Position numbers and translations under genes: made by a program. Shown here in pieces: positions 43,514 to 47,441 of a DNA stretch of 59,452 bases (positions are counted from its first letter, which is position 1; every line of letters starts with the position of its first letter). Source of the stretch: Acidobacteriota bacterium (GTDB lineage: Bacteria; Acidobacteriota; Terriglobia; Acidiferrales; UBA7541); assembly GCA_003154775.1 (NCBI GenBank), contig PMES01000130.1, positions 1 through 59,452 of the forward strand, in the 5' to 3' direction. Under the pieces are notes generated by a model. The model ran no database searches. It was not told the origin of the DNA and worked only from the letters and a program-made list of their open reading frames with translations.

Positions 43514-43978
43514 TTAGCTGCCGGCTTGCAGGCTCGTAGCGCGGTGAATCGCTTTGTGAATGCGCTGATACGTGCCGCAGCGGCACAGATTGCCGTTCAT
43601 GGCGTCGTCAATTTCCGCGTCCGTGGGGCTCGATTTCCTGGCCAGCAATGCCACGGCAGACATGATCTGCCCCGATTGGCAGTACCCGCATTGCGGCACA
43701 TCTTCTTCGATCCACGCTTTCTGAACGGGGTGGGAGCCGTCGGCGGAAAGACCTTCGATCGTGGTGATCTTCTTTCCCTCAACGCTGGAGACGGGCGTGA
43801 TGCACGAGCGCGAAGCTTCGCCGTCGATGTGCACCGTACAAGCGCCACACAGCGCCACTCCGCAACCGACCTTCGTCCCGGTCATATTCAGCGTGCCGCG
43901 CAGCACCCACAGAAGAGGCATCTGGGGATCCACATTGACGGTCGTGGCTTTTCCATTCAACGTAAAAGTGACGGCCAT
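43514..43978 (-). CDS. orphan (2Fe-2S) subunit of a molybdenum hydroxylase (IorA-like)
   Basis: This protein of 154 residues has the two [2Fe-2S] sites of xanthine oxidase-family small subunits: Cys39, 44, 47 and 59, then Cys97, 100, 132 and 134. It resembles the alpha subunit of isoquinoline 1-oxidoreductase. No signal peptide is present, unlike the small subunit at 8377-9021. The start is ATG at 43978, with AGGAGG upstream. The large molybdopterin subunit that normally follows is absent; the next gene downstream is the glycosyltransferase. It either works with a subunit elsewhere or is left over from a lost operon. Confidence 0.85.
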
Positions 43979-44086
43979 AAGTCCCTCCTTCGGCGCGCCC
44001 GATATCGTACACCAACTCCCCGCATGGATGGAAATTGTGCGCAATTCCGCCGGGTCCGCGCCCCCGGGCGACCTCTCGCCCTTGTA

Positions 44087-44340
44087 GGGGCCGCCTGGCG
44101 TTTACCCCGACCCGGTCGGGGAGGCGGGCCGCAGGCCAGTCTGTGTAGTGGCCGATCCCGCCTTGCGGGATCGGTTCTTGGGTTTATCCTTTGTCGCGTA
44201 CAAAAATGGGAATGTCGGCGCGCCGACAATTGCACTTGACGACGTAGTATCGGTACCCCCCCCCCCTGTTTTTGCGTATGTACGGGAATGATTGGACTTA
44301 CAGGTGACCCTCGCGTATGTACGGGAATGATTGGGGTTAG
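44087..44340 (+). repeat. composite intergenic repeat, unit A
   Basis: The unit holds, in order, GGGGCCGCCTGGCG (44087-44100), hairpin CCCCGACC-C-GGTCGGGG (44105-44121), a second hairpin with arms GATCCCGC/GCGGGATC (44154-44172), palindrome TGTCGGCGCGCCGACA (44213-44228), a run of eleven C (44256-44266) and a 74-base dimeric block (44267-44340). The block has two 22-base identical copies starting at 44274 and 44313, 39 bases apart, each ending in GGGAATGATTGG. The same modules recur in the same order in unit B. Confidence 0.8.
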
Positions 44341-44352
44341 GGGAGAAAAATG

Positions 44353-44381
44353 GTTGAAAGTTGAAAGTTGAAGGTTGAAAG
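44353..44381. repeat. imperfect tandem GTTGAAA repeat
   Basis: Four 7-base units of the form GTTGAAA lie in tandem with minor variation. A related pyrimidine version on the other strand is seen near 39826-39845. It lies between repeat units A and B. Confidence 0.6.
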
Positions 44382-44704
44382 GGGCCGCCTGGCGCCCTCC
44401 CCGACCGGGTCGGGGAGGGGGACCGCTCTTGCGACCTCGCGCTCGCGTGCAAGAACGGGACTGTCGGCGCGCCGACAATGTCAATTGATGTTGTAGTAAA
44501 CGCAGGCCTTAGAAAAACGGGTTCACAGTTCACAGCCGACAGTCGGCAAATCGGGGCGGAATTCTCAAAGCAGTGGCGAGTGGCGAGTGGGAAGGAAGTA
44601 ATGGAAGCAAAGGATACCCCCCACCCCCCCTGTTTTTGCGTAAGTAGGGGAAACAAAGGGGTTACAGGCGCATTTCGTGGATGTAGGGGAAACAAAGGAC
44701 TTAG
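44381..44704 (+). repeat. composite intergenic repeat, unit B
   Basis: This repeats unit A: GGGGCCGCCTGGCG (44381-44394), a long hairpin with 12-bp arms and one-base loop (44395-44419), palindrome TGTCGGCGCGCCGACA (44462-44477), a C-tract (44617-44630) and a 74-base dimeric block (44631-44704). The block's half-repeats start at 44644 and 44683, again 39 bases apart, but both end in GGGGAAACAAAGG instead of the unit A word. About 110 bases of extra sequence lie between the palindrome and the C-tract, including tandem GTGGCGA words near 44575. Confidence 0.8.
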
Positions 44705-45018
44705 CGGGTGCAAAGACGAAGGAGGGGCGAAGGACGTCTGGCCCTTCGCGAAGATCGCTCTGGGTAAAGGTGTGGGGCGGTCCGAAATGGCACAAGAGCA
44801 TCTTCCCCTCAGCATAACAGGTGAAGCATAGCACACTATTGACCGTTTGTCTACTATTATTTAGTGGGTACTAGTTTCGAAACTGGTACGAGGGGGGCCT
44901 TCGCGGAGAGCGCTCTTGAGAATTACAAGGATGCTCCACCCGCATTGACATGGGGCTATAATTCCGCAAGAGGGCTTTACCACCCACACTCACGCACAAC
45001 GACAAGGTGAATGAACAT

Positions 45019-46209
45019 ATGCCTCTCTTGAGTTTCTGGAAGAGTAATCGAGAACAAGTCCTCGAACTGAATATCGAGCAGATCGTGTCAAGCGCGGGCG
45101 ACGGAAATCTTAGAGACGGCAGCAATTGTTCTCAAGAACTCCGTCAGTTTTTTAGCGTTTGTCCGAGCGAGCGTTTGTTTGCTCATGCTCGCTACTGCTT
45201 GGAGAATTCATTCGAAAAAGGCGGCATAGTTCTACAAGACATCGTGAACGAGCTAGGAAGAAGATTGGATTTCGATGTTGAGGATGGACTGTATCAAGGC
45301 AAACGCAATTCGATTGGTTTTGATGGTATATGGCGAGTCAAAAACGAGCCCGCTCTTATTGTCGAGGTAAAAACAACAGACTACGTAACGATCCCCTTAG
45401 AAAAACTGGCCAATTACAGAGAACAGTTGGCGGCGAGCGACCGTCTCGCCCGCGATTCTTCCATTCTGATCGTGGTAGGCCGGGAGGACACCGGGGCTCT
45501 AGAAGCTCAGGTCCGAGGCTCCAGATACGCCTGGGATATGCGACTGATCAGCATCGAAGGGCTGGTAAAGCTCGTGCAAATTAAGGAGAAGTCAGATGAT
45601 CCTGGTAGCCTCCTGCAAATACGACAATTGTTACGACCTTTCGAGTACACGAAAATCGACAGAATCATAGACGTGATTTTCACCACCGCCGCCGATGTCG
45701 AAAGTCAGCAGGCGCCAGAACAAGACCTGTCCGCTGGCGAAGAAGTTCATCGACAAATAAGAACTGAACCCGAGTTACTAAACGCAAAACGACAACAGGC
45801 GGTGGACGCGTTTGCAGCTCTGAAAGGCAAGGAATTCATCAAGAAAAGTAGGACTCTCTACTGGACCCCTGACAAGAGCATTCGCGTCTGCTGTGCTGTC
45901 TCCAAGAAATATGAAGGAGACTATCAGCCCTACTGGTACGCATTCCATCCGACGTGGGAAGAGTTCCTAGCTGAAGGCAAAGAAAGCTACTTCATATTGT
46001 CATGCATGGATCGAGAAGAAGCCTATGCCATCCCGTATTCATGGCTTCGCGAGAACAAGAAAAACCTTAACATGACGGATAGGGGCGAAAGGTCATATTG
46101 GCACGTTCCTCTCACTACTATGGAGGGCAACCGCCTCGCGATTAATACTTCCAAAATTGGGAGCAAGACATCACTAGATCCATACCGCTTCAATTTTGCG
46201 ACGACTTGA
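45019..46209 (+). CDS. PD-(D/E)XK nuclease-like protein
   Basis: This protein of 396 residues carries the core of a restriction-endonuclease-like fold: Asp102 (IGFDGIW), then Glu116 and Lys118 in LIVEVKTTD, preceded by a helix with NELGRRLDF. The N-terminal 65 residues are helical. A distinct C-terminal domain (about 265-396) with aromatic-rich YQPYWYAFHPTWEEF has no name I can give. It may be a DNA-targeting defence protein. The start is ATG at 45019, with AAGGTGA upstream; GTG at 45007 is an alternative. The gene is AT-richer than its neighbours and follows the repeat array, which suggests transfer. Confidence 0.7.
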   Translation: MPLLSFWKSNREQVLELNIEQIVSSAGDGNLRDGSNCSQELRQFFSVCPSERLFAHARYCLENSFEKGGIVLQDIVNELGRRLDFDVEDGLYQGKRNSIGFDGIWRVKNEPALIVEVKTTDYVTIPLEKLANYREQLAASDRLARDSSILIVVGREDTGALEAQVRGSRYAWDMRLISIEGLVKLVQIKEKSDDPGSLLQIRQLLRPFEYTKIDRIIDVIFTTAADVESQQAPEQDLSAGEEVHRQIRTEPELLNAKRQQAVDAFAALKGKEFIKKSRTLYWTPDKSIRVCCAVSKKYEGDYQPYWYAFHPTWEEFLAEGKESYFILSCMDREEAYAIPYSWLRENKKNLNMTDRGERSYWHVPLTTMEGNRLAINTSKIGSKTSLDPYRFNFATT

Positions 46210-46270
46210 GTCTACGAGACTCCTCTGCGGAGCGTTAGACGGTCAAGTTATAATTGAGGTCGGTAAGCTT

Positions 46271-46854
46271 ATGAGTGTATTGAAGACAAATCCGATGACG
46301 CTCACCGGGCCCTGGGCAGCCGGATGCGTACTGGACTATCACAGTCTGAGTGCCACCCCTAATGGAGATCCATATCATCCATTTGAGATGACCTACACAG
46401 AAATTGGCGCTCGGTATATCGGTTTAAGTATTGGAATGATGTAACCGTGGTCGAGGACCTTCTTGAGACGGTGGAGGATTTTCTGTCAAAACGCGGGTGG
46501 CGGCCAGTAATAGAGTGTGTCATCCCAGCGCCGCCTTCGATTGATCGCAGCTCACAGCCTGTCGTTCTTTTGGCCCAAGGTCTAGCGAAACGCTTGGGTG
46601 TTTCAATCTACGTTGATGCGATGCGTAAAATTGAGAAAACTCCGTCCATGAAAAATGTTGATGATTGGTATGAGCGGCAAAGAATTCTAGGGAAGGCTAT
46701 CCAAATTGGGAAAGACGATGTGACGGGAAAGTCGATACTCTTGCTGGATGACTTGATTCAGTCGGGCGCAACCCTTCGCCGAGCCGCAGAGGTACTTCTG
46801 AATGATGGGAAGGCGAAGACCATCTACGCTCTTGTCTTAACGAGGACTCGGTAA
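46271..46854 (+). pseudogene. ComF-like phosphoribosyltransferase, interrupted by a frameshift
   Basis: The first frame (46271-46444) gives the family start TLTGPWAAGCVLDYHSLS and FEMTYTEIGARYIGL. The second frame (46447-46854) gives IPAPPSIDRSSQPV and the PRPP-binding motif LLLDDLIQSGATL, ending VLTRTR. Shifting by -1 at TTTAAG (46423-46428) joins them seamlessly as GLKYWNDVTVVEDL, which is how intact relatives read. The shift removes codon 53 and leads to TAA at 46442. A TATAAT lies at 46249-46254. It is either a disabling mutation, a sequencing error or an unproven -1 slip. An overlapping TAATG links it to the SLOG gene. Confidence 0.75.
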
Positions 46855-47441
46855 TGGAAGCCAGAGATAGCAACTTGAAAGTGTTCATTGCCGGTTCACG
46901 GCGCCTTTCTCGTTTGAGCGGGGACGTGACTCGCCGAATAGATAATATTCTCGCGAAGGGGTTCACAATAGTCGTCGGCGATGCAAATGGAATGGACAAG
47001 GCTGTCCAGAAATACCTCCGTAAACAACACTACGAAAGGGTCCTCGTTTATTGCATGGAAGGTGCATGCAGGAACAATGAAGGCGGTTGGAAAACAAGAG
47101 AAATACAAGCTCCAGAAGCGAAGCGGCGGGACTTCGCGTTTTTTTCAACCAAGGATCGTGCGATGGCAGTGGAAGCTGATTACGGGCTGATGCTCTGGGA
47201 TGGCGAGAGTCGAGGGACGTTGACGAGTATCGTTGATCTCGTCCGACAGGGCAAACCTGTACTTGTATATCTTGCGCCAGATAGATCGTTTCTTACACTG
47301 AAAGAGCCCGAGGACCTCGCACAGCTAAGGGGTCAGCTAGATTCAACTGCTCTCCTGCGGGTCGACAGAGAGCTTCAGCTTCTGACCCACCCAACAGTAC
47401 GCGTCTCGGGGCGAGAGCGCGAGACTTCCTCCATGTTTTAG
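46854..47441 (+). CDS. SLOG-family nucleotide-binding protein
   Basis: This 195-residue protein resembles DprA/LOG-type Rossmann domains (SLOG superfamily): the strand-loop FIAGSRRLSR at 11-20, GDANGMDKAVQ at 42-52, and the DGESRGT loop at 116-122. SLOG domains bind nucleotides or nucleotide-derived ligands and are common in signalling and conflict systems. Its ATG overlaps the stop of the ComF-like gene (TAATG), so it was translationally coupled to that phosphoribosyltransferase. Together they may make or sense a ribonucleotide-type molecule; this is inference. Confidence 0.75.
   Translation: MEARDSNLKVFIAGSRRLSRLSGDVTRRIDNILAKGFTIVVGDANGMDKAVQKYLRKQHYERVLVYCMEGACRNNEGGWKTREIQAPEAKRRDFAFFSTKDRAMAVEADYGLMLWDGESRGTLTSIVDLVRQGKPVLVYLAPDRSFLTLKEPEDLAQLRGQLDSTALLRVDRELQLLTHPTVRVSGRERETSSMF

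Follow-up and report, generated by a model that had tools for sequence, protein, structure and literature searches.

A modular, BOX-like intergenic repeat with a predicted promoter, probably a recombination substrate beside defence genes in one Acidobacteriota clade

Why should the two halves of an intergenic repeat carry the same variable word, and why should that word change in both halves when the repeat is duplicated in tandem? The question is raised by positions 44087-44707 of contig PMES01000130.1 from an Acidobacteriota bacterium, analysed as one stretch of 59,452 nucleotides (the window). Units A and B stand there in tandem, and each closes with two copies of a 25-bp motif, set 39 bp apart from start to start. 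The original prediction had listed the same modules in the same order in both units, half-repeats 39 bases apart, and one word in both halves of a unit with a different word in the other unit; re-read coordinates bear out all of this (half-unit starts 44276 and 44315 in A, 44640 and 44679 in B). Its 74-base block exists, but is only part of a conserved stretch of 88 bp, and its right boundary was set too early, as the repeat reaches on to a near-palindrome at 44868-44889. The features of the two units are as follows.

44087-44121, no strand: REP-like module of unit A, GGGGCCGCCTGGCG (44087-44100) and hairpin CCCCGACCCGGTCGGGG (44105-44121)
44213-44228, no strand: palindrome TGTCGGCGCGCCGACA of unit A
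44256-44343, plus strand: block A, with C-tract, TGTTTTTGC, two 25-bp half-units, word GGGAATGATTGG, 39-bp step
44276-44300 and 44315-44339: half-units of block A
44381-44419, no strand: REP-like module of unit B, GGGGCCGCCTGGCG (44381-44394) and hairpin (44395-44419)
44462-44477, no strand: palindrome TGTCGGCGCGCCGACA of unit B
44620-44707, plus strand: block B, with C-tract, TGTTTTTGC, two 25-bp half-units, word GGGGAAACAAAGG, 39-bp step
44640-44664 and 44679-44703: half-units of block B

Blocks A and B are 73% identical across 88 bp. In either class the sequence flanking the halves depends in part on position, usually with TTAC behind the first half and TTAG behind the second; as A and B have this pattern in common, they look like versions of a single dimer. 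The GGGGCCGCCTGGCG-hairpin module, which we take to resemble REP sequences, also occurs alone at many intergenic sites of the genome.

The window's own genome (4.63 Mb) is referred to as G000, a close relative as G035, and further members of the genus by other G numbers; L numbers denote loci. Further copies, on which the coupled-variation idea had been made to depend, exist in G000: block A has 33 matches at E<=1, more than chance would give, and the 801-bp stretch has at least 81 at E<=0.01 (40 of 182 first-look candidates scored). The family, with the 25-bp motif as its core and arrays that often step by ~39 bp, is found mainly in one genus of Acidobacteriota (Terriglobia). Block B matched 13 of 61 genomes (own included) at E<=0.001, all of one genus, with 14 matches in G035; a sequence model of 38 positions, derived from 20 half-units, matched 30 of 36 genus genomes, own included, at a lenient E<=0.1. 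When 151 genomes of the class, G000 among them, were searched for pattern GKAWGWRNGGNNNNNAWNGGRSTTA, 13 contained it, G000 43 times, and the reversed-pattern control gave 0 hits in G000 and 2 overall. A strict 26-base pattern returned 42 stretches from named GTDB genomes, 41 titled Acidobacteriota and 1 Synergistaceae; an earlier, restrictive pattern had given a single, unrelated-looking hit. Arrays range from 1 to 5 units across genomes, an internal sub-repeat of variable copy number, and many intergenic copies are made of discrete modules in varying combinations, as expected of a BOX-like kind. Arrays of 1-5 units with related words do not resemble a CRISPR array. A recurrent layout was seen in G027 (L115, L116, L120, L121, L123, L124, L125), with steps near 39, 25, 36 and 40: a run of forward units is interrupted by a single reversed unit, whose word is B-like (GAAACAAAGG), and then continues.

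Matched halves are the rule in G000 and its close relative G035. All 24 half-unit pairs counted in G000 (16 BB, 8 AA) and all 17 in G035 (9 BB, 8 AA) have 39-bp steps and none is mixed, that is 41 of 41 counted dimers; the counts cover the fetched loci, leaving out truncated dimers, NN-interrupted dimers and halves with more than 2 scaffold mismatches. The two 8-base words of a pair lie at a mean distance of 0.33 in G000 (1.98 shuffled) and 0.59 in G035 (2.28 shuffled), values reached by 0 of 2000 shuffles in either genome. G027 shows partial homogenisation (22 pairs, 1.09 vs 1.55 shuffled, reached by 0 of 2000). In G012 a single one of 17 pairs is identical, and the distance is 2.76 vs 2.61 shuffled (p 0.70): three-unit arrays there read CAAACAAA, then CAATGATT (or CAAGGAAA), then CAAGGAAA (or CAAATAAA), the words differing by array position and a B-like word standing beside an A-like one. 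Identical pairs number 0 of 3 in G024 and 0 of 1 in G020, too few for statistics, as are the pairs in G034 (3) and G008 (3). Steps of 36 to 41 bp are present outside G000 and G035. Coupled words as a rule, for which the original prediction had itself proposed independent words in other copies as the test, thus fail in G012, where different, position-specific words lie side by side, and coupled recognition as a general rule is ruled out by these arrays. Nothing was found in favour of the suggested paired recognition except the constant 39-bp step.

Orthologous composites of G000 and G035 differ in their sequence by different cargo, by replacement of whole A or B blocks, and by gain or loss of a unit. 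At the C103 site, L168 (G000) has a B dimer and the orthologous L199 (G035) an A dimer; the surrounding modules are similar, the right-end module with its unusual GTACTATTTTCG variant is common to both, and both halves of the block have changed. L157 and L201 likewise differ by an A/B block, the block of L157 containing an NN gap. L162 has one unit (B) and L190 has A, palindrome and B, so that a unit was lost or gained between shared modules; the difference is located between the GTTAAC stretch and the C-tract. B is retained in both L167 and L200. Because whole A or B blocks have been replaced, and units gained or lost, between orthologous sites, the concert of words is best explained by recombination between repeat modules, and whole-block exchange, loss and gain by recombination between shared modules would be the simplest cause. 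Homologous recombination (unequal crossing-over, conversion) among many similar modules would move whole blocks, and moving whole blocks would keep the two halves of a block alike. The gene conversion or copy mechanism proposed earlier holds loosely, in that whole blocks, both halves jointly, differ between orthologous composites; the A/B divergence in both halves may have originated by conversion within the dimer or by selection. Matched words in tandem repeats, as this family suggests, can come from block recombination without paired function.

Beyond block B the composite continues into a conserved right end.

44790-44895, minus strand: conserved right-end module, 106 bp, starting 83 bases right of block B
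44825-44853, minus strand: predicted sigma70-type promoter TAGACA-N17-TATGCT, a consensus match reading leftward over blocks B and A
44868-44889, no strand: near-palindrome GTACTAGTTTCGAAACTGGTAC, 22 bp, with one unpaired position per side

The near-palindrome sits 14 bp upstream of the -35 box; other copies of the promoter module have TTGACA in place of TAGACA. The right-end module matched (E<=0.01) 30 times in G000 (~18 near-complete) and 23 times in G035 (~17 near-complete), once in G007 and not at all in six other genomes. The near-palindrome (<=2 mismatches) was found at 25 sites in G000 (11 exact), 20 in G035 and 1 each in G004 and G009, and was absent from the other 32 of 36 genus genomes. 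Promoters were scored as the best score within 350 bp (cut >=9) for each combination of side and strand. A predicted promoter on the right side and reading inward accompanies 18 of 21 B blocks in G000 and G035 (4, 0 and 3 of 21 for the controls) and 5 of 16 A blocks (2, 1 and 0 for the other combinations). In a set of other relatives (G004, G005, G007, G008, G009, G010, G020, G028, G034; 6 of the 16 loci from G007) it accompanies 14 of 16 motif clusters (1, 2 and 0). By genome, the clusters gave 4 of 7 in G008 (2, 2, 0) and 2 of 3 in G024 (1, 0, 0), and weaker figures in G012 (4 of 7; 0, 2, 0) and G027 (11 of 24; 5, 3, 9). The promoter module thus commonly appears to lie ~100-300 bp right of the core motif, predicted to read back over the array. 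In the modules shown from G007, G008 and G024 the -35 box is preceded by TTCGAA; the G008 modules also have a start region near GGTCGTGAATTCTCGAC, by eye like one subtype of the window's own genome. A second right-end subtype carries a different leader (GTCGTGAATACTCGGCACAAG...) behind a similar promoter and palindrome (L182, L183, L184, L186, L187, L188, and sites in L158 and L166); in L186 a GmrSD_N and a cytosine methylase gene are close by.

Such an end could belong to a dedicated regulatory leader or non-coding RNA gene, the near-palindrome serving as operator, the promoter making the RNA, and the 39-bp dimer forming a paired protein- or RNA-recognition element whose words must match. In favour stand the step, constant in all 41 pairs of G000 and G035, the promoter with its upstream TTCGAA element in the modules shown from G007, G008 and G024, and the exact palindrome pattern at 11 of 25 G000 sites; the words, however, are unmatched in G012, G024 and G020, no Rfam covariance model matched at E<=1 within 43900-45010, and the folding of the block, proposed as a check in the original prediction, proved no better than that of shuffles for single sequences (z -0.34 and +0.85). 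Alignments of relatives fold better than column shuffles (z -1.8 to -6.5), a lenient control, but their double-change pairs are few (3/45, 0/24, 4/75, 0/20). We regard this reading as rather unlikely. A hairpin within the half-unit, from its GTAAG...CTTAC ends, was rejected, as second halves are unpaired and compensatory changes inconsistent (by eye). A transcript acting as the 5' leader of the left-hand gene is also a weak candidate, 16 of 27 left-hand genes being co-directional with it.

The leftward strand could, alternatively, be translated: a minus-strand open reading frame (MLRGRCSCAIS...LTPLFPL...QKQGG) would turn the 39-bp step into 13 codons. The ATG is in frame with the block in 10 of the 12 blocks with a start found (17 scanned), and synonymous changes are relatively commoner in that frame (13:16, vs 6:26 and 5:27). 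The frame test has little power, however, because the length from start to block takes only 7 different values, 5 of which keep the frame; ACG replaces ATG in 2 of 26 start windows, and pneumococcal BOX elements also open frames on both strands (PMC3049150). A real protein is very improbable here. In its main character the family is, we infer, parasitic or passive and not a dedicated regulator.

What lies on either side of the composite is not alike. The genes flanking it in the window are the following.

43514-43978, minus strand: native left gene, 2Fe-2S protein (Fer2/Fer2_2)
45007-46209, plus strand: cargo gene 1, 400 aa (or start 45019)
46447-46854, plus strand: cargo gene 2, phosphoribosyltransferase-like (NCBIfam matches, all below cut-off)
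46854-47441, plus strand: cargo gene 3, weak DprA match (E 0.0004, below cut-off)

Cargo gene 1 has no match in Pfam, PADLOC or NCBIfam at 0.01, and its VEVK stretch is reminiscent of PD-(D/E)XK nucleases; cargo gene 3 has no match in Pfam. The three genes beside the composite (45007-47441) are a candidate for an undescribed defence module. Across G000 and G035, the 30 proteins nearest to the composite on the palindrome side match 105 PADLOC families (1e-5), and the 27 nearest on the opposite side match 4, led by DndA/SspA, a match that looks like an ordinary cysteine desulfurase. Genes were called with a simple codon-usage script, and both sets depart from the nearest-gene rule by the addition of L158, which the rule had missed, and by leaving out the row at 6116 of L195; for the palindrome side the longer ORF of L166 was used, and on the opposite side L194 is represented by the next native gene, replacing a cargo gene, and L171 by a gene on the opposite strand. 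Under the strict rule the opposite side again gives 27 proteins and 4 families. Around 16 copies of the REP-like hairpin module, taken as control, the 32 nearest proteins match 0 PADLOC families, and a Pfam scan of ten left-side genes showed no defence family. Taken singly, at least 8 of the 30 palindrome-side proteins match PADLOC (L152, L156, L157, L158, L166, L168, L169, L193) and at least 6 do not (the window's gene, L155, L160, L162, L165, L197); PADLOC models few toxin-antitoxin genes. The genes past the near-palindrome in G000 and G035, either nearest or a few kilobases further and chosen by eye, include those for Shedu SduA, Lamassu LmuA and LmuB, restriction-modification proteins, a PLD-domain protein, a TrlF/Ppl-like ATPase, GmrSD_N, cytosine methylases and a reverse transcriptase, and for the toxin-antitoxin proteins HigB, MazE with Fic/Doc, PIN, PIN_8, Phd/YefM and DUF433. 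No recognisable cargo lies beside the palindrome in L167 and L200. The promoter and near-palindrome end thus tends, judging by these matches, to face anti-phage and toxin-antitoxin genes. Cargo genes stand in either orientation (17 rows on the same strand, 13 opposite, of 30), which does not fit a repeat that is simply a promoter of cargo; a rightward promoter for the cargo is disfavoured by the same 17/13 split and by the predicted promoter, which reads away from the cargo. Exchangeable cargo adjoining a repeated site is also a property of integron cassette arrays, from which these composites differ by their larger cargo and its variable orientation. At 26 loci in other members of the genus, where gene maps were read by eye, the motif lies mostly among ordinary genes, so strong linkage to defence seems to belong to the palindrome-bearing clade and not to the motif family. 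Outside that clade, L135 and L141 (G007, G008) have toxin-antitoxin-like neighbours (PIN-like, HicB-like, by eye).

The sites stay and the cargo changes. Native flanks are shared with fetched G000 composite loci at 9 of the 13 fetched block or right-end loci of G035 (L189, L190, L191, L194, L195, L196, L199, L200, L201), at matches of >=350 bp, a threshold that shorter shared stretches would escape. Both flanks are common to L168 and L199, and to L171 and L195, and the genes between them differ; the cargo of L201 is like that of L170 in G000 (84%), and that of L194 like that of L156 (92%). At the window's left flank in G035 composite modules adjoin the native gene as well, and the contig then ends; a different sequence precedes the right flank (from ~47560 into a gene that we take to be serC-like). 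In L191 the left flank of L152 meets the right flank of L169, so that a rearrangement has taken place at what remains of a composite. No insertion footprint and no comparable empty site turned up among the orthologous sites, which weighs against the exchange of cargo proposed here.

Composites might serve a site-specific or transposition system as its end or attachment site, defence cargo being inserted next to the near-palindrome, as the polarity of the cargo, the conserved and clade-specific near-palindrome and the similar cargo beside different composites in the two species would allow. No common junction beside the near-palindrome was seen at the sites aligned, however, as would be looked for at a transposon or MITE end; three right junctions, when inspected, gave no recurrent far-end motif or target duplication, and the distance from palindrome to nearest called gene varies, being 93-531 bp in 21 of 30 rows and 730-2290 bp in 9. 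This makes insertion improbable. Quite improbable in our estimation is a purpose-built docking and control site at the palindrome-promoter end, where a clade-specific protein on GTACTAGTTTCGAAACTGGTAC and a leftward RNA with 39-nt-spaced paired words would together help to take up defence cassettes as they arrive, to exchange them or to silence them, at ~20 places in the chromosome simultaneously.

Misassembly is the principal caveat for the comparison of sites and cargo, as short-read contigs misjoined at repeats would mimic cargo swaps. Both assemblies are fragmented (150 and ~210 contigs), several contigs end in or near a composite, and NN gaps lie in or near three G000 composites (L156, L157, L159); against this, exact stretches shared by two composites reach at most 66 bp among the 17 of G000 (median 30) and 42 bp among the 10 of G035 (median 26), two sites retain both native flanks in both genomes, and the block family and its polarity are independent of joins between genomes. 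It is most unlikely that artefact accounts for the swaps.

The best reading of the locus, with a probability of about 0.6, is a modular BOX-like intergenic repeat, a promoter-bearing composite that acts as a recombination substrate at defence-gene hotspots. It builds on the family, its architecture, the predicted promoter and the cargo polarity, all of them read from sequence. Copies in G000 and G035 appear to have grown into composites that have the 22-bp near-palindrome at their end and in many cases adjoin defence or toxin-antitoxin cargo, and recombination between modules would help to swap that cargo at composite sites. The nearest described kind, likened by architecture, is the BOX element of Streptococcus pneumoniae, a modular interspersed repeat with a variable internal module copy number and frames on both strands, likely parasitic, in part transcribed, with terminal inverted repeats and target duplications (PMC3049150). 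The Acidobacteriota repeat is also modular and interspersed with variable internal copies, but belongs to another phylum, includes a sigma70-type promoter module and borders defence genes in one clade. REP/REPIN sequences are similar in being dispersed repeat populations maintained in bacterial genomes (PMC8049555), and the composite is far longer and modular by comparison; from the gene-transfer hotspots between core genes (PMC5635113) the case differs by a multi-copy, oriented repeat that edges many such sites in one genome. A repeat of this kind was not found in the parts of the open-licence PMC literature consulted, a scope in which absence weighs little.

Defence islands swap genes without a visible mobile element; a repeat that edges many sites in one genome, tends to face the cargo and stays fixed while the cargo changes is a testable candidate substrate for such exchange. 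The repeat may also serve as a sequence tag for undescribed defence genes, for example the unannotated gene at 45007-46209.

Two small observations concern individual cargo genes. The reverse transcriptase at L193:5007-5981, which adjoins a composite of G035, fits DRT-type defence profiles. The DUF433 gene at L164:4299-4523 and a small gene similar by eye at L188:3864-4088 both follow the near-palindrome, and a toxin-antitoxin role is presumed for the two.
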